Below, one piece after another: positions 3,001 to 12,310 of a DNA stretch of 48,617 bases. The notes beneath the pieces are model-generated. The model searched no databases. It was given only the letters and a program-made list of their open reading frames with translations, and had not been told where the DNA came from. Every line of letters begins with the position of its first letter. The first letter of the stretch is position 1. This DNA is from an uncultured Clostridia bacterium (lineage in GTDB: Bacteria; Bacillota; Clostridia; Oscillospirales; Acutalibacteraceae). The stretch covers positions 73,667-122,283 of the forward strand of contig CANQGK010000003.1 of assembly GCA_947623175.1 (NCBI GenBank), in the 5' to 3' direction. The translations under genes were made by a program, and so were the position numbers.

Positions 3001-4445
3001 GCGGTGTCAATGTACTCATCTACCGAATTGTTCGCATTCAGTTTGCCGCTGTTTTTCAGTTCGCCGGTGGAATCCTTGAAATGCTCCTCCGGCCCCAGAA
3101 TAGCGTCGATGGTGGCCTTGACTTGATTGTCACTCAAATCGGAGTAGTTTTTCTCATCGCTTGCGTAGATGGAATAGCACGACAAAGCAACCGGTTTGCC
3201 GTCTTTATCCGTCACGCCGGTGCTGTTGTAATAGGCCTCCACGGCGGACTTGTAATAGGCCGCCGTCATCAGCGTCTGGAAGATGACCGGAGCCGCATCG
3301 CCATAGCCGGTGAGCTGGCTGGCATTATAATAGTTTTTTTCAGTGGGACTTACATTTAACGGGCTGTTATACGCCAAATCATACTTCCAGTTGACGTTGT
3401 TCCAGTTGCTGGCGGTCTTTTTCCACGCCTCGCTGCTACTCGATTCCGCTTCCGGCTGGATCCAAGCCAGATCGCTGGCCTGGCCGTCGGTCAAGTGGAT
3501 CAGCGCAGGTAGCCGCAAATACTCCTTGTCTTCGACGATCGTGTTCCAAGTCAGTTCGTTGTTTTCCTCAATAAATTCATTCATAGCGACAGCCAAACCT
3601 GCCTGAGGGTTGGTGATATGCCCAACATGGATCGGATTATTTTCGTTTTTGACATTGCCGGTGGTATTGCCGCCGGTTCCGTGATATGTGCGGTTGCTTG
3701 TTCCTTCGGTTCTGTTGTGAGCTTCATTGTTTGTTTGCCCGGCGTTGTCGGCGTAATACCTGATTTCGCTGCCGTCCTTTTGCTGTACGGTGGCCGTCAG
3801 GCTGAAATGGAGTCCCTGAGTGCCGCCGTATACCTCAATAAACTTTGTCGACAATTCGGCGCTGGTGTAATGAGCCAACGGCACCAGAACCGCAGCAGTC
3901 GAGCCGTAGACTACGATGCCGAACCGCGAATTTGGGTTGTTTTTGAGTAGGAGAGAAATGGCGTTGTTGACGGCAACCACCGTTTTACTGATGGCGGAAT
4001 CTGTAAAATTAGCCTTATCTACAAGGACACTTCCATTTTTGCCCATGGAGCCGGATACGTCCAATACAAACATCACATCCAAGGGCTGGGGCGGATTTTC
4101 TTTGACAACTTGAGAGCTCGATAAAGCGGAGAAAATCGTTCCAAAATCAGAATTGAATTTTACGGTTCCGTCGTAGCCGTCGGTATCCATATCGAGGCCG
4201 ATGTTGTTACCAAAAGCAAACACGCTCTTGTCCGTCCACACGCGCCCGGCATACCGGCTGCCCCAATCGTCCGACAGCAGCTTGCCGATATAGGTATCGC
4301 TCGTATCCCCGTCGGCAACCCGACTCATTACGTTCCCTGTCGCCTCTGCGGCAAATGCGGACGACAACACCCAACCGCCGAAATTACACAGCATAGCCGC
4401 CGTCATACACAAGCACAACACGCATGAGAGCAGTCTTTTACCCAT
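1..4445 (-). CDS. Giant secreted von Willebrand A (vWA) surface protein, C-terminus beyond the window
   Basis: The frame stays open from the ATG at 4445 to the left edge, giving at least 1,481 residues with no stop. A signal peptide spans about residues 1-34 and ends in AFAAEA. A vWA domain follows: the metal-binding (MIDAS) motif DVSGS is at about residues 129-133, and a later LIHLTDGQ strand at about 315 has the conserved Thr-Asp. A long Ser/Asn-rich region of no family I recognise comes next. Near the edge, STLMVTKTLEAPDEF starts what resembles a DUF7601/Cna-B-type isopeptide stalk domain, so a sortase motif may lie outside the window. An in-frame ATG at 4520 would add 25 residues (MRELSRNSNRQRRSF); neither start has a clean ribosome binding site. 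The gene lies downstream of the TetR gene on the same strand. The likely role is adhesion or matrix binding; the ligand is unknown. The region is visibly richer in GC than the rest of the window. Confidence 0.85.
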   Translation of the reverse strand, partial: MGKRLLSCVLCLCMTAAMLCNFGGWVLSSAFAAEATGNVMSRVADGDTSDTYIGKLLSDDWGSRYAGRVWTDKSVFAFGNNIGLDMDTDGYDGTVKFNSDFGTIFSALSSSQVVKENPPQPLDVMFVLDVSGSMGKNGSVLVDKANFTDSAISKTVVAVNNAISLLLKNNPNSRFGIVVYGSTAAVLVPLAHYTSAELSTKFIEVYGGTQGLHFSLTATVQQKDGSEIRYYADNAGQTNNEAHNRTEGTSNRTYHGTGGNTTGNVKNENNPIHVGHITNPQAGLAVAMNEFIEENNELTWNTIVEDKEYLRLPALIHLTDGQASDLAWIQPEAESSSSEAWKKTASNWNNVNWKYDLAYNSPLNVSPTEKNYYNASQLTGYGDAAPVIFQTLMTAAYYKSAVEAYYNSTGVTDKDGKPVALSCYSIYASDEKNYSDLSDNQVKATIDAILGPEEHFKDSTGELKNSGKLNANNSVDEYIDTAYELYKAWKNNGATNITFSENTTSSNSSSKNDNLNEIAIMLNTTKEQLENGSGRYSSYDWCNISVADIEKNINYVPKDNFSQTGFEGLEDLFQQVVLELLGQAFVPISGNNAAGVADSITYQDPLGEYMELKNGAITVEKGTVTGSSEKTFDMSMLLFGEMHGLVRAGVYDYQWNNKYMHDNDAKTGYPNPNVNPDEEPLEIGWYKGDAENAVYSYDKVTGLPEGCTSAADAWAQGWVLRLDYKTLAEFVPISGITDTMKPTEVPEQIKHTVYTCYRFADSQVDRNKLRCNPIFGEVTDSLQKEWQNYFDTYGSYPVGKDFYSDYSGIYRLSDIRVWAEHTGDYVDQTGAITPEEESGYDDSLYVNVPVSAVPTQLAEITIGAEGPISYKDNLNDKKQSTPVRLFYAVGLTEDLILRDADGNQTGVDVSKISGEYIESHSDPETNNIHFISNWYSNTAYRGYTSDAAEEYRTRGDAAVTFSPNEKNRYYLFQKPLPLIAHAYRVTDGEGNVAPVDNADGKVWGDNGAGNGETTWEDGKTGGATWSGGEFIGTYESEATFKTALGKKFEKDGVWYITDEKNYAYPLPQDIKDAVITYTEDQLSKVDSDTSGGYASGSNSFSSDDYFFLCIEYYLPMEGAGKDIHGNEDPNTQAVRKVSRMIARKGSAFGSGLHSENIDNGDMLCWTDINGNCTSELEYNSRTDTGDNTRGRPTLQKLTYTGNDLRTYLESIGLSGKYLEDDVKYWTSVQADPHMAALIEEIKKADKADDRQAKFDELFDWSVAARTGGIRVGDMFNNMQAKLSADEIKNGTGPTFGDYGFYAGNVTKTANNYYIPTLSEISTAGEGLVVNNFLGNNGRLEVANSTLMVTKTLEAPDEFTLIEKQQNEIFNYQVYVQGLTGERLAQRLKWNPFSQSWQKRVESLDILTDNASLLVDTNGSRALFCYESGVPRQIVEVYEDGVPRYYYADATGAATDTPCTHTSKDFYYLYLPNSAGEQNYHL

Positions 4446-4610: not shown

Positions 4611-5255
4611 TTAATAGGATGATTCCTCCGACATAAACTCATTGACAAGCCCCATCAGGCGGCGAAAACCGTATTCGGACGCTTCGGCGCCGTCCGGTCG
4701 CCATCCCGCGCAAACGGGATAAACGGACGAAGCCGTCGCTTCAAGCGCTATATAGACCAGCGTTTCGGTATCCGTGTCCGGCAAAAGCTCCCGAAGACGC
4801 TCCGCGATAGGCTGCCAGATAGCCTGATAACTGTTTTTCGCGGTTTCATCAAAAAATGCGGAGTAATAATACCGAATCATAAAAGCGCATGCTTCTTTAT
4901 GCTGACTCAGCCATGTCCAAACGGTATGCCATATAAAGCGCAGCCGGTGTTCGCATGAAATGTTCTTTTCCCACAAAACCGAAAGCAGTAATTCGACCTG
5001 CTTCATAAAAGCCCTGCTTTCCCGCACAAAGGCTGTCAGAAAAAGCTCCTCTTTACTTACGAAAAATCGGTAAATCACCGTATCGGTCAATCCATGCCCC
5101 GCTTCGGCGGCAATGGCGCGGGTTGAAGCGCCTTCCACACCCTTTTTCGCGACGACGCGAACAATAGCGTCCCACAGCAATACGTCCGCATGTATTCTTA
5201 CAGGTTCGTCAACATAGCTTTTTCTTGTTCGTTTTTTATCGGTTTTGGCAACCAT
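4611..5255 (-). CDS. TetR/AcrR-family transcriptional regulator
   Basis: The 214-residue product has the usual TetR layout. A basic N-terminus (KTDKKRTRK) is followed by a helix-turn-helix at about residues 28-75 with the signature STRAIAAEAG...TDTVIYRFFVSKEELF. The rest is an all-helical ligand or dimer domain that I cannot assign to a ligand class. The start has GAGG about nine bases upstream. Its 5' region extends to the left arm of the recombinase inverted repeat, with no obvious promoter of its own, and the vWA gene follows on the same strand. TetR proteins usually repress neighbouring or own promoters. Here the position suggests control of the vWA surface protein, or being itself the target of the invertible promoter. 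That assignment is inference. Confidence 0.85.
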   Translation of the reverse strand: MVAKTDKKRTRKSYVDEPVRIHADVLLWDAIVRVVAKKGVEGASTRAIAAEAGHGLTDTVIYRFFVSKEELFLTAFVRESRAFMKQVELLLSVLWEKNISCEHRLRFIWHTVWTWLSQHKEACAFMIRYYYSAFFDETAKNSYQAIWQPIAERLRELLPDTDTETLVYIALEATASSVYPVCAGWRPDGAEASEYGFRRLMGLVNEFMSEESSY

Positions 5256-5289: not shown

Positions 5290-5372
5290 CAATCGCTTTT
5301 ACAGTCTCACTGCAAAAACCCGAATTTTGTGCCGTAAAAGCGAAAATTACGGATAAAGCGATTGCTTTTTTT
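5290..5372 (+). terminator. Stem-loop with T-run facing into the recombinase element (left flank)
   Basis: CAATCGCTTT (5290-5299) pairs perfectly with AAAGCGATTG (5355-5364), which is followed by C and seven T. The large loop holds a second small hairpin, CCGTAA...TTACGG. Read on the plus strand it looks like an intrinsic terminator pointing into the element. Read on the minus strand it lies in the leader of the TetR gene and has no T-run. A related hairpin lies in mirror image outside the right arm, with compensating base changes in the stem. Confidence 0.5.
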
Positions 5373-5378
5373 AACCAT

Positions 5379-5403
5379 TTTTTTTCGCAGAGTTCCTTAT
5401 TCT
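5379..5403 (+). repeat. Left arm of a 25-bp perfect inverted repeat flanking the recombinase
   Basis: This stretch is seven T followed by CGCAGAGTTCCTTATTCT. Its exact reverse complement is at 6828-6852. The two arms enclose about 1.42 kb holding one complete tyrosine recombinase gene. Outside the arms the similarity continues imperfectly (R-TTGC-T6-7 and TTTTACAGTC blocks). The layout fits recombinase crossover sites of an invertible segment. Confidence 0.85.
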
Positions 5404-5453
5404 GCTGTTTTAGCGGGTGCAAGCGCATATTCGCAGGGATTTTTCTCCTGCTT

Positions 5454-5474
5454 TGACGGCAATTTGTGACGGCT
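5454..5474 (+). repeat. TGACGGC direct repeats, left end (possible recombinase arm sites)
   Basis: TGACGGCA (5454-5461) and TGACGGCT (5467-5474) lie just downstream of the recombinase stop codon. The same heptamer in the same orientation recurs at the other end of the element (6649-6678). Tn916-type integrases bind short arm repeats near both ends of their element, so these are candidate sites for the N-terminal domain. Confidence 0.45.
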
Positions 5475-5478
5475 TAAA

Positions 5479-6600
5479 TCAGCAGCCGATAACCGCCAGC
5501 TTGTCCATATTTGCGCGTTTCAACTCCATGGAAGAATGAACGTATCGCTCCAAAGTAAACTTCGGGTTAGTGTGTCCGAGAATTTCGGACAGCGATTTGA
5601 TTTCAAATCCGACCTCCACACAGCGCGTTGCAAAAGTGTGTCTGAGCGCATGAAAATGCACGCCCTCGAGCCCGCATTCGGCTGTATATCGCTCCAAACG
5701 GTATTGCAGAGTGCGAGGCTCCATATAGCGGTCTTTATTCCCGGTCAGCACGAATGCCGCCGGATCTTTCTTTTCTCTAAGCGCACACAGCTTCGCCGCA
5801 TATTCGGTGAGCGGAATCACCCGAGCCGACGTGTTGCTTTTCGGAGGGGTCATCACGATTTTGGTTTTTCGTATAGCATTTGCTTCATAATCCTTTAATC
5901 TCAGCATGGTGGAAACCACGGTAAGGGTGCGTTCGGACAGCGAAATGTCGCCCCAGCGCAAAGCGCATATTTCGCCGATCCTGAGCCCCGTAAGCAGCGC
6001 CAACAGCACGCCGAATTTACAGTCGTCCAAATCGGTAAGTAAATACGCCGTAAATATTTGCTGTTCTTCGCGGGTGAGTACCCGCATTTCTTTTTTGGCT
6101 TCTTTCGGATAGACGATCTCAATGTTCTGCGGCAGCAACAATGCATCCTGCCTCCGGATATAACCTATAACCGAATGTACTACCGTCAAAATACATCGGA
6201 TGGTTTTCGGCGATAATTCTTCTTCGCAAAGTAATTCATGGCTGAATTGCTCGATAAGGACGGATGACAAAGCCGACAAAAGGCATCCGCCGAGGTTCGG
6301 CAAGATGTGATTGTGAATGATTACGTCATATTTCATATAAGTGGATTCCTTGACGCGACTGCGGCAGAGAGTCAGCCACTCTTCGCAATAAACGGCGAAA
6401 CGTTTTCGGGTGTTTGTCGCGGAAGCCGTACCTTTAAGCAAGTCGGCTTTTGCCGAGTTCAGCTTGTCGCGCGCTTCACGGTAGGTCTTGGCATAGCAAT
6501 ACCCGAAGCGCGGAGAACCGTCCGGTTTGTAGCCCTTGATATATCGGGCTTCCCAACGATTGTCTTTGCGTTTATAAATGTTTTCTCCCTTTTTGGACAT
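5479..6600 (-). CDS. Tyrosine recombinase/integrase inside an inverted-repeat element
   Basis: I start the gene at 6600 (MSKKGENIYKRKD), because AGGAGG sits seven bases upstream; the longer open frame to 6696 has no such site. The product is 373 residues. The first 60 resemble an integrase arm-DNA-binding domain (RWEARYIKGY...GYCYAKTYREA). A SAM-like core-binding domain spans about 75-165. The catalytic domain has Arg in TGLRIGE (about 207), Lys in PPKSN (about 266), His-x-x-Arg in HALRH (about 318-321), His in LGHTN (about 343) and Tyr in LERYVHS (about 352). All catalytic residues are present, so it should be active. It is the only gene between the two inverted-repeat arms. No excisionase, mobilisation or cargo gene accompanies it, which favours a DNA invertase over a mobile-element integrase. 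Confidence 0.9.
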   Translation of the reverse strand: MSKKGENIYKRKDNRWEARYIKGYKPDGSPRFGYCYAKTYREARDKLNSAKADLLKGTASATNTRKRFAVYCEEWLTLCRSRVKESTYMKYDVIIHNHILPNLGGCLLSALSSVLIEQFSHELLCEEELSPKTIRCILTVVHSVIGYIRRQDALLLPQNIEIVYPKEAKKEMRVLTREEQQIFTAYLLTDLDDCKFGVLLALLTGLRIGEICALRWGDISLSERTLTVVSTMLRLKDYEANAIRKTKIVMTPPKSNTSARVIPLTEYAAKLCALREKKDPAAFVLTGNKDRYMEPRTLQYRLERYTAECGLEGVHFHALRHTFATRCVEVGFEIKSLSEILGHTNPKFTLERYVHSSMELKRANMDKLAVIGC

Positions 6601-6648
6601 AGTAAATGCCCTCCTTTCAAATAATATTATTATTTTACTCCAAAATCC

Positions 6649-6678
6649 CGACGGTTTTTGACGGCAGTTTTGACGGCA
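6649..6678 (+). repeat. GACGG direct repeats, right end (possible recombinase arm sites)
   Basis: CGACGG (6649-6654), TGACGGCA (6659-6666) and TGACGGCA (6671-6678) lie just upstream of the recombinase start. They match the two copies beyond its stop codon. They could be arm-type recombinase sites or an autoregulatory operator. Confidence 0.45.
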
Positions 6679-6789
6679 TATGCTATCAAAAATCACCGAT
6701 TTTCGGGCACATTTTCGCTGCTTATTTGTAGAAATTTACGATTTTCTGTTTTTGAGATATAAAAAATTTTGAATTTTTTGTAAAAACAC

Positions 6790-6818
6790 TTGAAATTTAT
6801 GAAATTTGGAGTTATAAT
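6790..6818 (+). promoter_or_regulatory. Near-consensus outward promoter just inside the right arm
   Basis: TTGAAA (6790-6795), a 17-base spacer and TATAAT (6813-6818) form a near-perfect sigma-A promoter. It reads rightward, across the right arm starting ten bases further on. No plus-strand gene follows; a terminator at 6921-6960 stops it. If the segment between the arms were inverted, the same promoter would read leftward into the TetR gene with a leader of roughly 150 bases. This is the regulatory heart of the proposed switch. Confidence 0.65.
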
Positions 6819-6827
6819 CTACTGCAT

Positions 6828-6852
6828 AGAATAAGGAACTCTGCGAAAAAAA
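6828..6852 (-). repeat. Right arm of the 25-bp perfect inverted repeat
   Basis: This is the exact reverse complement of 5379-5403. It lies ten bases after the -10 box of the outward promoter, so any transcript from that promoter begins at or just before the arm. Confidence 0.85.
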
Positions 6853-6862
6853 TATAAAAAAG

Positions 6863-6914
6863 CAACCGTTTCAGATTTACATTATTTTGTATTAATTTGA
6901 CTGTAAAACGGGTG
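6863..6914 (-). other. Mirror-image stem-loop outside the right arm
   Basis: CAACCGTTTCAG (6863-6874) pairs, with a mismatch and a bulge, with CTGTAAAACGGGTG (6901-6914). On the minus strand the stem is followed by a T-rich tract leading into the arm, so it faces into the element as the left-flank hairpin does. The stem bases differ from those of the left hairpin in a compensating way (CCG/CGG here, CGC/GCG there). Confidence 0.4.
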
Positions 6915-6920
6915 TAAAAA

Positions 6921-6960
6921 AACCGACCGAGACGCAAATAATTCGTCTCAGTCGGTTTTT
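6921..6960 (+). terminator. Strong terminator blocking the outward promoter
   Basis: AACCGACCGAGACG (6921-6934) pairs with CGTCTCAGTCGGTT (6944-6957) with one G-U pair, and T's follow. The minus-strand reading also ends in a T-run, so it can work both ways. It sits about 100 bases after the start point expected from the promoter at 6790-6818. Confidence 0.75.
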
Positions 6961-7261: not shown

Positions 7262-10129
7262 TTACAGCGCCAAAATCTTATCGACAATTTTAGGAATATC
7301 TATATCATTAGCCGTTTTGGGATATTTTTTATCACTTCTCACCCAACGCCATTCGTAATCGAACCAATTTATTTTTTCACGGAATTCTTCGCCTTTTAGC
7401 TCTCTTATGCGTTCGTTTATCCACAATTGCCAACGACATTTGTAAAAATCCTTTTCCAATCCCGACCACTGCTTGTTAGCGTAATCCCGCAATCCCCCGG
7501 TTTCGCATTGTTCAAACGATCCCCAAGTGGTTATTTGCGCCTTGGCGTTTATTTGATAAAGCCGCTTTGTAAAATCATCCGTATTTTCCGCCGCTTTTTC
7601 CGCCAAGCTTAGCCACCTGCCGAGAGTGCAATATTCGCTTTGTGACAAAAGCTCATCCATAATATCGAAAATATTTAAAAATTTTCGTGATAATTTGCGA
7701 AATTCGGAAAGTGAACCTTCTTCAAACGCTTTTGCCGTTTCGAGCTGAATATCCTGCGATTTATTTACAAGAATTTGTTGAAACAAAGCCACAAGATCCC
7801 AGATATATCCCTCGTTGTGCTTTAACCTATCATAATCCTTTATTAAAAGCTTTCCTGCCTTTACAAGTACCTTTTTATCATAAGTTACGGAATCGTTTCC
7901 CCAAGAGGACGCCGCACGCACCTTAAGTGCCGGCTTTGAATTACTTACGGCATCGACCGCTCCCTGACCGATGTTATTGAACTTCGCCCTATATACTGTA
8001 TTGATCAAAATATCCCACGCGCCGTTAACGGCGTCACTGTTTATTCCGTATCGCCTTTGCGTATACTTATGCAACCATTCCTTTAAATCGAGAGACTGCA
8101 TATCACATTCGGCATTATCCCGCCAAACCGACTCAAGGAGAAAATCGTATAATATGGGATTATTATAGGTTGATTCGGCCGTGATCCCTATACCCGAAAT
8201 ATATTCGCTTTTGTTAAAAGCGTCCGGAATCCAACTGTTGAGATTATCGATATGACCGTGCAGACCGCATCTGCCGCCAAAATTATTCAACATGCAAAAT
8301 ACCCATGGTGTTCCGTCAAATTCAGGCGAATACCCGTGGTCGGGATTACCGGAAGAGCCTTTTTTATAATTTGGCTGTTTTTCGGCATATAAATCCAAAA
8401 TCAAGGCGTGACGTTTACCGTTTTCAATTTCGCCTATACCGGCAAGCAATTCGGAAGACGGATTGCTCATCCAAGACTGTATTACCCAAATTGCGCTTTT
8501 ATTATATTCGAGCATCTGCTTCAAAATCAAGCCGGCAACTTCCCGCGGAGACATATCTCCCATATTGCCGCCTTCGTGAAAGGGGTCTACGGCAAAATAT
8601 TCGGTAATATTTCCGTACACTTCGGACTGTGATTCGTAAAATAATTTTGCATATTTTTTAAAACATTTCGAGGTAGTTCGCAACATTACTGGGCGGTCAA
8701 ACGAGCACCATGTTCCCTGCAAAACTATTTCCGCACTTTTATCGTGATCAAGAATATCGTTAGGCGCCATTCCGCTGTATCCCTGTAAAACGGGGCTCAT
8801 GCCCAAAATGCACATAATACGCTGATTTTTACGCGCCAAATCCGTTCTTTTTTTAAACCAACTGTCATGCACGGGACCGCCGTAGTGTGACATGTTCGCC
8901 ATATAAAGCCAAGCGTAATATGCGGGGCCGGTTAAAAAACGTTTTATTTCTTCATGCGTGTAATTAAGCTTGCCTAAAAAACGGCGCCAAACCTCTTCCT
9001 GAGCTGTAATATCCAACACAAGGTTAACTCCGTTTAAGGCTAACCAATCAAGCTCCCTGCGCCACTCCGTTTCTCCCCAAAAAGCCATTGTATAAGAGTG
9101 TGTACAATAGTTGTAAGCATACCTCACCCGCGCCTTAGTCTCTTTATGTACCGTATTGTCAAGCGGCACGGGATTTTCAGGCATTTTTGTTTGATTTCCG
9201 AGCTGTGATATTAAAACATTACAAAAGTATTTAAGATAATGATTAAGCCCTGACGCCAGGGATACTCCGTTGTTGCCTTTTATAAGTATCTTTTTGTCGG
9301 GAGTGTTTGATAATTCAAAATAATCGTAAGGTTCGCTGCAATTTTCGGCGATTTCTAACTTAAACCAAGCTTTATAACCTTTCCCCACTGTACGCTCTAC
9401 AATTCCGTAAACTTCATTGTAGGTATCGTTTATGGTAACGGGAACATTATATTCGGTATCTTCAAATTTCGGAATATTTATTTTTTGCGGATATATTATT
9501 TCGGTATTGCTTTTTTCGCCCGTAAATTTAAGATCGTTTAAAATTGCTTTCGGCGACGCGGAATTATATTCAAAATATACGCGAATAAATCTCGCTTCTT
9601 TTTTATTTGCAAAAAAAATATCACCGTTTTCGTTACACGGCTCGTCATTTTGTTTTTCCGCCAAAAAATCATAATCGACGCCGTTTATGCTTGTGAAAAC
9701 CGAATAATGACTGAATCCGTCTTTACTTGTAAAAACCGATACGGTATCAAGAAAATAGTTTTCACCGAGGTCCTTATCAAAACATGTAGGATAATAATTT
9801 GTAACACTTTCCTTTAATTCCTCGTAAATTTCAATATCGTATCCGTTTAAATCAATATCGGCAATAAAATAAACGTGCGTTGCGGAAAACGAATTTTCAA
9901 ACTCAAATTCTATTTTTTCGGCGCCGGTCACTGTTTGTTCCCCGGCAAAAATCAAATCTGAAATAATGCCGTTCTGAGCGTATTTTATTGTAATTTTTTT
10001 GCCCGAAGCATCGGCAAATACATTATTGGGGGTTAAAACGATTTTTTTAACAAAACGCCCCAAATCAAATTGATAAAATAAGCCCGTGTCGTTCTGCCTT
10101 ACCTTAAAAAGTCGTATTTTCTCTAACAT
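7262..10129 (-). CDS. GH89 alpha-N-acetylglucosaminidase-like enzyme (NAGLU family)
   Basis: The 955-residue product has no signal peptide and is probably cytoplasmic. The first 215 residues look like an F5/8C (CBM32-like) beta-sandwich (FTSKDGFSHY...EARFIRVYFEY). A NAGLU N-terminal domain spans about 230-315. The catalytic barrel, about 335-660, contains FWGETEWRRELDWLALNG, SPVLQGYSG and the acid/base region AVDPFHEGG (Glu about 513). WVFCMLNNFGGR follows, and the likely nucleophile Glu lies in GITAEST (about 650). A helical C-terminal domain completes the protein. GH89 enzymes remove terminal alpha-linked GlcNAc, for example from GlcNAc-alpha-1,4-Gal caps of gastric-type mucin or from heparan-type glycans. 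The start is supported by GGAAAGAGAG upstream. It follows the GH26 gene by 61 bases. The family is clear; the exact substrate is not. Confidence 0.9.
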   Translation of the reverse strand: MLEKIRLFKVRQNDTGLFYQFDLGRFVKKIVLTPNNVFADASGKKITIKYAQNGIISDLIFAGEQTVTGAEKIEFEFENSFSATHVYFIADIDLNGYDIEIYEELKESVTNYYPTCFDKDLGENYFLDTVSVFTSKDGFSHYSVFTSINGVDYDFLAEKQNDEPCNENGDIFFANKKEARFIRVYFEYNSASPKAILNDLKFTGEKSNTEIIYPQKINIPKFEDTEYNVPVTINDTYNEVYGIVERTVGKGYKAWFKLEIAENCSEPYDYFELSNTPDKKILIKGNNGVSLASGLNHYLKYFCNVLISQLGNQTKMPENPVPLDNTVHKETKARVRYAYNYCTHSYTMAFWGETEWRRELDWLALNGVNLVLDITAQEEVWRRFLGKLNYTHEEIKRFLTGPAYYAWLYMANMSHYGGPVHDSWFKKRTDLARKNQRIMCILGMSPVLQGYSGMAPNDILDHDKSAEIVLQGTWCSFDRPVMLRTTSKCFKKYAKLFYESQSEVYGNITEYFAVDPFHEGGNMGDMSPREVAGLILKQMLEYNKSAIWVIQSWMSNPSSELLAGIGEIENGKRHALILDLYAEKQPNYKKGSSGNPDHGYSPEFDGTPWVFCMLNNFGGRCGLHGHIDNLNSWIPDAFNKSEYISGIGITAESTYNNPILYDFLLESVWRDNAECDMQSLDLKEWLHKYTQRRYGINSDAVNGAWDILINTVYRAKFNNIGQGAVDAVSNSKPALKVRAASSWGNDSVTYDKKVLVKAGKLLIKDYDRLKHNEGYIWDLVALFQQILVNKSQDIQLETAKAFEEGSLSEFRKLSRKFLNIFDIMDELLSQSEYCTLGRWLSLAEKAAENTDDFTKRLYQINAKAQITTWGSFEQCETGGLRDYANKQWSGLEKDFYKCRWQLWINERIRELKGEEFREKINWFDYEWRWVRSDKKYPKTANDIDIPKIVDKILAL

Positions 10130-10190
10130 AAATAACTCTCTTTCCGTATTTGCGAACGTAAGAACCTTTTTGCGGTCGAATTTTGAATTA

Positions 10191-11153
10191 TTATTTATAG
10201 TTGTTTATCGTTTCCAGGGTTACCGAATAATCCGAGAGCGTCCTGTCGATATTTTTCGGAAAATCATAATAAAATCCCAAGAACGCGCAGCGCGCACCGT
10301 TTTTAAAGTGACGTTCCAAATGGTCCTGTGTTTCACGAAGCGAGAATTGATCCATATGATAATTGCCGTCGCCTCCGAATTCCGCAACCGCAAACGGCAT
10401 GTCTTTGCCGGCGGCATTTTGTAATTCGTTATAAAATTCGGTGTAATTACCTTCTTTTAAATACCAGTCGAGAGACAGTATATCAACATAGTCATTACCG
10501 GGATAGCACTTTGCGGCGTCTTCCTTAGCAAACATAAGCGAGGGATTAAATTCCCATAGTATGTTTTTTAAATTCCATTCGTTCTCAAAATAATCATGAA
10601 CAAACTTAAATAAATCGGAAGCGTCTTTACCCGTAATACCGTTTTTCAAATACATTTGCCACCAAAACCATCCGCCGTTTATTTCATGCAGAGGGCGCAT
10701 TATTACGGGAACACCCGATTTTTCAAACTTTTTTATAAATAAAGCGTCAATATCAAGCTCGTCTTTAAAGTTGGTATTCAACTCGGTGCCGTCTTCGAAT
10801 ATCTGTAAAAATTCAGCTTTGGTAAGATTATACCTGCTGTTGTTAGCACCACGCATAACGGCATCCTTTATATTTATCTGCGGAGTAAGCCAATGCGCGG
10901 TAAGAGCTATAAATCCACCTTTTTGCGCAAATTTGCACAATTCGTCAATTGCCTTAGCCACATCGCTCGGAGTCAAAAAAGGCAGAGAGTGCATATCAAA
11001 ATCGAGAAATGCGGGAGTTTTGCCTGTCGCCGTTTTAAACCTTTCTATAGCTCTGGCCACATCTAAGCTTCCGCAAAGATGAGTACCTACGGCATAATTA
11101 TCGGTTTTAAAGGTCAAATTTTTAATTAAATTATAAAGCTCCGTTTTGTTCAT
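10191..11153 (-). CDS. Intracellular GH26 glycosidase (beta-mannanase family)
   Basis: The 320-residue product is a lone GH26 catalytic domain without signal peptide or accessory module. Family motifs are FIALTAHW, GANNSRYNLT, the acid/base motif RPLHEINGGWFWW (Glu about 155), NILWEFNPS, and the nucleophile region FAVAEFGG (Glu about 258). GH26 members are mostly endo-beta-1,4-mannanases, with some exo-mannobiohydrolases and beta-1,3-xylanases. A cytoplasmic enzyme would be expected to cut imported oligosaccharides. It is closely related along its whole length to the C-terminal domain of the secreted dockerin protein at 19689-22970. It is the first gene of a two-gene unit with GH89, divergent from an AraC regulator. 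Confidence 0.9.
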   Translation of the reverse strand: MNKTELYNLIKNLTFKTDNYAVGTHLCGSLDVARAIERFKTATGKTPAFLDFDMHSLPFLTPSDVAKAIDELCKFAQKGGFIALTAHWLTPQINIKDAVMRGANNSRYNLTKAEFLQIFEDGTELNTNFKDELDIDALFIKKFEKSGVPVIMRPLHEINGGWFWWQMYLKNGITGKDASDLFKFVHDYFENEWNLKNILWEFNPSLMFAKEDAAKCYPGNDYVDILSLDWYLKEGNYTEFYNELQNAAGKDMPFAVAEFGGDGNYHMDQFSLRETQDHLERHFKNGARCAFLGFYYDFPKNIDRTLSDYSVTLETINNYK

Positions 11154-11470
11154 AATTTTAAATACATCCTTTCGGCTGTTATTTATTGAATTTTTTTATA
11201 TGTGATTATTTTGATTTTAAATAAAGTTTACAATATACTTTCCATTACACTCAAGCTATTGCTCCGGTATAATGCTTTTTTGAAGTCATTGATAAATATT
11301 CAAATCGTTTTGCCGCATATTAACTTTACTGCCCGCCGAAGGCTCGTGGTAAGGTTTCGAAAGTACATCCTTGATGCTCTCCGGTTTTTAATATTTATAG
11401 CATTCTTTTGTAATTCGACTTGATTTTGCCTGATTTTTTTATATAATTATATATAAGAGGTGACTCATAT
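11154..11470. other. Divergent intergenic region between GH26 and the AraC regulator
   Basis: This 317-base AT-rich region separates divergent genes. It holds a good plus-strand promoter for the regulator (listed separately). On the minus strand I see only a weak candidate (TTGTAA, 17 bases, AATAAT) for the GH26 gene, which fits a promoter needing an activator. No gene or structured RNA is apparent. Confidence 0.5.
11420..11447 (+). promoter_or_regulatory. Promoter of the AraC regulator at 11471
   Basis: TTGATT (11420-11425), a 16-base spacer and TATAAT (11442-11447) lie 23 bases before the start codon. AGAGGTGA serves as the ribosome binding site. Confidence 0.6.
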
Positions 11471-12310
11471 ATGGCAAAATACAGAGATCTTGATCCTTTT
11501 ATGGAGCAAAGAATTTATCCGAATGAAGTCGACCCCGTATTTTTTCAAATGAATGAACTCGGTGAAGCGGCAACCTTTCCACCGCATTTTCATGACGAAA
11601 TTGAAATATTATATGTATTTCGCGGAAAAATAGCGGTTACCATTTACGGCGAAGAATATATCGTGCCGAAATACAATATATGTTTTGTTCCGAGCATGTC
11701 TATTCACAGTGTAAGAAATTTCAGCGAAATAAGCGAATACAACGTCTGTTTTTTGAAACCGGCTTATTTTGCCAAAGAAAATGTGAATATAACGGCATAT
11801 ACCATACCGTATATCATTAACGATACCGATATCACAGAAGATTATAAAAAATTAAAAAATCTCTTTTTCGGCGATAAAAGCCAATTCAAACAAATTGCTT
11901 TAAGATCTCTCGGAACATATTTTGTAATAAATATGATAAAGCACGCTTCGCTAAACGAAAACGAGCCGTATTTACCGAATGACCAAAAATTGGCGGTAAT
12001 TAAAGATGTTACTTTGTTTTTAAAAGAACATGCCTGTGAGCAAATTGATATAAGTGAAATTTGCAAAAAGTACGGATACAGCTCAAGCTATTTAAGCAGG
12101 CTGTTTAAAAAATATACCAAAACCACCATGAGTAAAGCGCTTAACTATTACCGATGCATAAATGCGCAAAAACTGCTTATGACAAAGGATATATCTATAA
12201 TGGAAATATCTGAAATGTGCGGATACAATAATTATTCTTACTTTACCAAGACCTATAAAGAATGTATAGGTGAATTGCCGAGCACCACAAAAAACGCATA
12301 TATAAGTTGA
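11471..12310 (+). CDS. AraC-family regulator with cupin sensor domain
   Basis: The 279-residue product has an N-terminal cupin-like sugar-sensing domain with the motif FPPHFHDEIEILYVFRG at about 36-52. A C-terminal pair of helix-turn-helix motifs spans about 178-276 (ISEICKKYGYSSSYLSRLFKKYT, then IMEISEMCGYNNYSYFTKTYKE). This layout is typical of activators of sugar-use genes in Firmicutes. It is divergent from the GH26-GH89 unit and convergent with the large operon ending at 12373, so GH26-GH89 is the natural target. The effector is unknown. A second regulator of the same type lies at 42540. Confidence 0.9.
   Translation: MAKYRDLDPFMEQRIYPNEVDPVFFQMNELGEAATFPPHFHDEIEILYVFRGKIAVTIYGEEYIVPKYNICFVPSMSIHSVRNFSEISEYNVCFLKPAYFAKENVNITAYTIPYIINDTDITEDYKKLKNLFFGDKSQFKQIALRSLGTYFVINMIKHASLNENEPYLPNDQKLAVIKDVTLFLKEHACEQIDISEICKKYGYSSSYLSRLFKKYTKTTMSKALNYYRCINAQKLLMTKDISIMEISEMCGYNNYSYFTKTYKECIGELPSTTKNAYIS

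Follow-up and report, generated by a model that had tools for sequence, protein, structure and literature searches.

A candidate self-contained invertible promoter, encoding its own tyrosine recombinase, upstream of a sortase-pilus operon in an uncultured Clostridia bacterium

The window analysed here is a 48,617 nucleotide (nt) stretch of DNA from an uncultured Clostridia bacterium. Towards its left end lies a segment bounded by a 25-nt inverted repeat without mismatch, with 1424 nt between the two arms (Table 1). This is the only mismatch-free pair of that length between positions 4400 and 8200. The pair has an arm score of 25, compared to a best score of 13 in 30 two-base-block shuffles of the flanks, and the 18-nt core of the arm occurs at only two places in the window when up to three mismatches are allowed (mean of 0.01 in 100 shuffles). 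In the organism's own genome, zero-mismatch matches to a 21-nt arm pattern (16 fixed bases) are found at the window arms only. A search of this genome for extra copies of the site with up to three mismatches gave 25 forward and 16 reverse matches versus 16 and 16 in the control, with no clear site in trans. The inverted similarity extends imperfectly beyond the arms, to positions 5356-5371 and 6856-6871 (88% over 16 nt), and may be left over from an earlier duplication of the leader. Elsewhere in the genome (contigs C8, C20, C28, C33, C42, and C40), a word similar to TTTTGCAGAGCTTTAGCTTCT is repeated at seven places and is perhaps the end of another repeat element.

Table 1. Features of the segment and its surroundings, in window coordinates.
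Feature	Position	Strand	Basis or remark
vWA surface protein, N-terminal 1506 of 2259 aa	3..4520	-	continues outside the window
TetR-family regulator	4611..5255	-	PF00440; would be the promoter's first gene in the flipped form
Left arm	5379..5403	+	TTCGCAGAGT as outer half-site, then spacer TCCTTAT and the beginning of the inner half-site
Two TGACGGC putative arm-type sites, left end	5454..5473	+	sequence and motif count; presumed binding
Tyrosine recombinase, 374 aa	5479..6603	-	PF00589, PF14659
Two TGACGGC putative arm-type sites, right end	6659..6677	+	same strand as left; presumed binding
Outward promoter TTGAAA-17-TATAAT	6790..6818	+	predicted; 9 nt inside right arm
Right arm	6828..6852	-	perfect inverted copy of left arm
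Terminator-like hairpin	6918..6960	+	z -5.40; 0/200 shuffles as good

The tyrosine recombinase, the one open reading frame (ORF) of the segment taken to a Pfam family search, is the sole convincing gene between the arms: the other listed ORFs of at least 40 amino acids (aa) between or across the arms overlap the recombinase or cross an arm, and no excisionase or transfer gene was recognised there. The ORF begins with an ATG at 6603 behind AAAGGAGGG. A longer product from a GTG at 6696 is possible as an alternative, but most alignments with relatives begin at residue 1 or 2. The residues that we take to be the catalytic set (R208, K255, H318, R321, H344, and Y354) do not vary across 44 aligned sequences, the window protein among them, and these positions together with the PF00589 match identify a catalytic domain with the R-K-H-R-H-Y set. 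The initial annotation had described perfect 25-bp inverted arms enclosing a complete recombinase, with all catalytic residues, as the only gene, accompanied by no excisionase, mobilisation gene, or cargo. The arms are borne out by the shuffle controls, the completeness of the gene by Pfam and the invariant residues, and its solitary position by the ORF list, as nothing but the recombinase was recognised between the arms.

The N-terminal domain of the window protein is not recognised by Pfam. In a predicted model (mean pLDDT of 86), it consists of three strands and one helix, an arrangement given as a feature of the Int_Tn916 subgroup in the covered part of PMC8138268. Among solved structures, those of the Tn1549 integrase come closest in both sequence and fold. 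Residues K5, G6, N8, I9, K11, R12, D14, R16, W17, E18, and R20 of this domain are invariant in the 44 aligned sequences, which fits with the conservation of the putative arm-type sites discussed below. Predicted fold and arm-type sites place the recombinase near the Tn916/Tn1549 integrases.

A predicted promoter of the sigma-70 type is located inside the segment, close to the right arm and pointing outward. It matches the consensus at 11 of 12 positions and is the best of six sites between 4000 and 8000. Because sites of this type are not in excess in the region (6 versus 6.8 in shuffles), the case for the promoter is made by the quality of the site and by the recurrence of its place in relatives, not by site number. 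Among 83 related loci with arms (discussed below), 57 have an outward site of at least 9/12 within 45 nt of the upstream arm (11.9% in shuffles), and the other 26 have no promoter of at least 9/12 near the arm. In the assembled orientation, the predicted promoter faces the terminator-like hairpin, beyond which lies a convergent alpha-N-acetylglucosaminidase (NAGLU) gene; as assembled, the segment would be OFF. Terminator-like hairpins are present in the promoter-faced flank at 31 loci versus 8 in the other flank, with 81 of the 83 loci used and those with short flanks left out. In the flipped form, the distance from the -10 box to the TetR start codon would be 157 nt. At the threshold applied, the window gave no promoter for the recombinase itself.

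To the left of the segment, the TetR gene precedes a co-oriented gene encoding a 2259-aa protein with vWA, DUF7601, and DUF5979 domains, which confirms the earlier description of a TetR regulator and a giant vWA surface protein as neighbours of the recombinase. By eye, this protein has a signal-peptide-like start and a membrane-anchor-like end. Beyond it, outside the window, are genes for a pilin backbone protein, two sortases, and a minor pilin: the TetR-side gene set is a sortase-pilus operon. Relatives of the vWA gene are found in 13 of 16 chosen loci, both with a recombinase (L015, L016, L019, L020, L021, L022, L023, L029, L040, L041, and L129) and without one (L130 and L131). The region to the right of the element (7262-12310) encodes NAGLU, a GH26 enzyme, and an AraC regulator, and is likely a carbohydrate-use locus.

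Related recombinases were compared at 95 loci: 80 from a scan of species genomes, 10 from same-genus genomes (10 of 70 of these genomes, the organism's own included, have a recombinase match), four from viral contigs, and the window. Arms scoring at least 14 surround the recombinase at 83 of the 95 loci, with a span of mostly about 1.45 kb; this count includes two pairs of identical records (L005/L064 and L006/L045), and at L023 and L065 a lower-scoring pair was chosen as the arms. The remaining 12 loci either have flank DNA missing on a side (L008, L013, L017, L018, L047, L053, and L095) or have no arm pair (L033, L054, L058, L096, and L097), with a single site at L033, L096, and L097. The genes read outward were scanned up to two genes a side, leaving out the window and seven near-duplicate loci. 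On one side (107 proteins), they include nine Trans_reg_C, eight TetR, four signal peptidase S26, four vWA, three WxL, and three camelysin proteins; on the opposite side, five of 56 are TetR.

A viral control comprised 75 further viral loci (without L095-L098), 46 of which have enough flank. Arms scoring at least 17 are present at none of 16 loci with 25-30% identity, 3 of 24 with 31-36%, and 3 of 6 with at least 37%, compared to 66 of the 73 genome loci whose flanks were long enough. No arms were found at the mycobacteriophage integrase locus L110, where the best score is 11. Integrases and switches are not cleanly split by this measure, since arm scores reach 24-26 on the unverified 'phage' contigs L107-L109 and lie between 12 (L099) and 26 (L104) at plasmid loci. 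Several contigs filed as viral or phage carry a recombinase between inverted arms (L163, L164, L167, L168, and L107-L109); these are either switch-bearing phages or misfiled bacterial contigs.

The half-site TTCGCAGAGT is found with up to two mismatches on both sides at 57 of 107 loci. The 50 loci without the motif on one or both sides were left out of the spacer comparison, among them every Enterococcus locus but L087, as the Enterococcus arms differ in sequence. At 52 of the 57 loci, the 7-nt spacers of the two sides are identical in the inverted sense (mean of 6.72/7), with 46 different spacers among the 57; when the right-hand spacers were redealt among loci as a control, the mean was 2.94/7 and at most 3.39. 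The spacers fit in the direct sense at only three of the 57. L048, L069, and L098 scored low, probably from the wrong site having been picked, and were counted anyway. In the window itself, the spacers of the two arms agree in the inverted sense. Tyrosine recombinases require a matching overlap sequence, and this requirement together with the matched inverted spacers indicates that these sites are built for inversion, not excision. Transposition and excision of the segment were also considered and are rejected from the sense of the spacers.

Hexamers of the GCCGTCA type are concentrated inside the arms on one strand, upstream of the gene at 74 of 83 loci and downstream at 66 (approximately two expected); on the other strand, the numbers are four and three. 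They, like the TGACGGC pairs in the window, resemble arm-type sites, recognised by an integrase with two kinds of binding site. These putative arm-type sites are direct and the cores inverted.

Opposite orientations of the segment are observed among relatives. L048 and L069 represent one locus in two MAGs, with flanks that agree at 92.3% (3463 nt) and 92.6% (256 nt). When aligned in the orientation of the flanks, their segments agree at 48% as read versus 95% when flipped, and the breakpoints are at the arms. In L015 and L016, which have TetR and vWA genes related to those of the window, the promoter is on the TetR side, opposite to the window; by eye, the leader in these two loci resembles the flipped form of the window. 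The flank opposite the target gives no match between the window and either L015 or L016. Target-side flanks match across orientations between the window and L015, L016, and L023, between L025 and L026, and between L043 and L044. Of nine pairs that match on both flanks, eight have the same orientation (two are identical records) and only L048/L069 cross. No flip was seen at two Enterococcus raffinosus loci (two and four records, with at least 80% of the query on one strand), and one Enterococcus plasmid query fully matched its own record only, the remaining matches being to the flank or a part.

Of the 46 loci where just one side has an outward gene, 39 look OFF and 7 ON, by a rule that is rough: it calls the opposite L048 and L069 both OFF, and L048 has little left flank. 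Outward genes are on both sides at 33 further loci and on neither at four. The relative L131 (3840-4420) has arms of 20 nt with one mismatch and 359 nt between them, plus a third copy of the site. Its promoter is 9 nt from the arm and directed toward TetR; the recombinase is absent there, and in this genome, which is approximately 90% complete, the best match to it has 26% identity. L131 resembles a frozen version of the element, a natural relic, and may be locked ON.

Taken from sequence, these features make it highly probable that the window segment is a self-contained invertible promoter, probably flipping the pilus operon ON and OFF. The recombinase would bind the core sites in both arms (half-site TTCGCAGAGT and spacer TCCTTAT), and its N-terminal domain would probably bind the TGACGGC pairs inside each end. 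Strand exchange within the spacer would then invert positions 5379-6852, the recombinase gene included. In the ON form, the promoter would point left into the genes for TetR, the giant vWA protein, the pilins, and the sortases; in the OFF form, which would be the one assembled, it would point right into the terminator. Comparison of loci shows that segments of this family invert at their arms, that the spacers match, that the outward promoter is kept, and that related targets occur with opposite orientations. For the window itself, we infer that this copy is active, that the arm-type sites are bound, that the pilus operon is transcribed from the promoter, and that the pili are phase-variable. 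The segment would most likely switch sortase pili by phase variation, presumably within a population. The initial annotation had proposed that the recombinase inverts its own segment and had suggested comparing orientation in relatives. The first claim finds support in the layout at 83 of 95 loci, the inverted spacers, L048/L069, and L015/L016; the comparison yielded opposite orientations at L048/L069 and, for the window's target, at L015/L016. The promoter, the terminator, the putative arm-type sites, and the pilus genes past the window edge are additions to that annotation.

Some of these features would also suit a minimal integrative element or transposon, with the arms as its ends and the recombinase excising and integrating it: the enzyme is of the Tn916/Tn1549 type, putative arm-type sites lie inside both ends, and related cassettes precede unrelated genes and so have moved in evolution. 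We regard this as very improbable given that the spacers match in the inverted sense at 52/57 loci versus 3/57 in the direct sense, that L048 and L069 keep both flanks while the segment is flipped, and that no excisionase or transfer gene is recognised between the arms.

The intact ORF with its invariant residues, the perfect arms with the spacer kept, and the near-consensus promoter make it improbable that the family inverts while the window copy is inactive and locked OFF, although assemblies are mostly OFF-like, 8/9 pairs with two matching flanks agree in orientation, and a recombinase-less relic exists in L131. It is likewise unlikely that the segment inverts with its outward promoter serving another purpose, the pilus operon having a promoter of its own. 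The outward promoter is recognised by its consensus match alone and in most assemblies is directed away from the neighbouring outward gene; however, its position near the arm is kept in 57/83 loci, terminator-like hairpins are commoner in the flank that it faces, and in the relic L131 it is still directed toward TetR.

The self-contained invertible promoter that we favour can be compared to known systems. In the Hin/H segment of Salmonella, the recombinase lies within the inverted segment and the promoter points outward, as in the window. Hin is a serine recombinase, whereas the window enzyme is of the tyrosine type (PF00589) and differs in its putative arm-binding domain, its sites, and its target: the analogy to Hin in the initial annotation holds for the layout and fails for the type of enzyme. 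RecV of Clostridioides difficile is encoded outside the switches it serves, whereas the window recombinase is inside its own. In the covered part of PMC5903667, RecV resembles the window system as a tyrosine recombinase of Clostridia that uses inverted repeats to turn surface genes on and off, and acts on several switches of its genome; the same part states that recombinases mostly adjoin their switch and are occasionally inside it, naming Hin. The earlier comparison with RecV is the weaker one, since RecV acts on several switches, and the likeness is drawn from descriptions. The Tn916/Tn1549 integrases share with the window enzyme the fold, the N-terminal domain, sequence similarity, and paired sites inside the ends. 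The window differs from a Tn916-like element in having no recognised excisionase or transfer genes and in having core spacers that are inverted, not direct.

In the covered part of PMC11892184, Clostridia inverton group 139 is statistically linked to a nearby tyrosine-type invertase group, group 35. This inverton group may include elements of the window type; in a comparison by description only, the group 35 invertase is near the inverton, whereas the window recombinase is inside. The parts of the reviews PMC11868660 and PMC8987985 covered here describe no such cassette, and no tyrosine-recombinase cassette of this make-up was found in the titles and abstracts searched, which covered few subscription papers.

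The invertible promoter as such is known; its self-contained form with a Tn916-type integrase is unusual and is seen repeatedly in gut Clostridia and in Enterococcus. On balance, we lean toward the view that portable self-inverting promoter cassettes are widespread in Clostridia and Enterococcus and commonly give rise to phase variation in the Gram-positive bacteria of the gut. Such cassettes would have their own recombinase (a Tn916-type integrase with inverted, not direct, cores), a matched spacer, arm-type sites, and mostly an outward promoter, and would precede pilus operons, genes of the SipW/TasA type, and master regulators. A unit of approximately 1.45 kb with the recombinase inside, inverted arms whose spacers match, arm-type sites, and a promoter pointing outward would constitute a compact signature, by which sequence alone could reveal phase-variable surface genes of gut Clostridia and Enterococcus. 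In the source organism, this signature predicts phase-variable sortase pili. It also suggests a route from mobile-element integrase to switch, and the family supplies numerous natural pairs of enzyme and site with which to study how an integrase that binds arm sites is made to invert DNA and not excise it.

Related arrangements are found both in the organism's own genome and in relatives. Contig C10 (L128, 3600-5095) encodes a second recombinase of the window type, 45% identical and with its own arms, in an element that adjoins a helix-turn-helix gene. On contig C35 (L127, 3602-5284), a TetR paralogue (55% identical) occurs without a recombinase; upstream of it is a perfect 28-bp inverted repeat with 570 nt between the arms. 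At L065 (2480-6417), two similar camelysin/TasA-like genes face away from the element, one on each side, and long inverted repeats score 166 and 77; a flip at this locus could choose between the two genes. The non-target flank of L016 (5208-5445) contains 7.4 copies of a 32-bp unit, each with an arm-like half-site, and L015 has two copies 32 bp apart on the target side.
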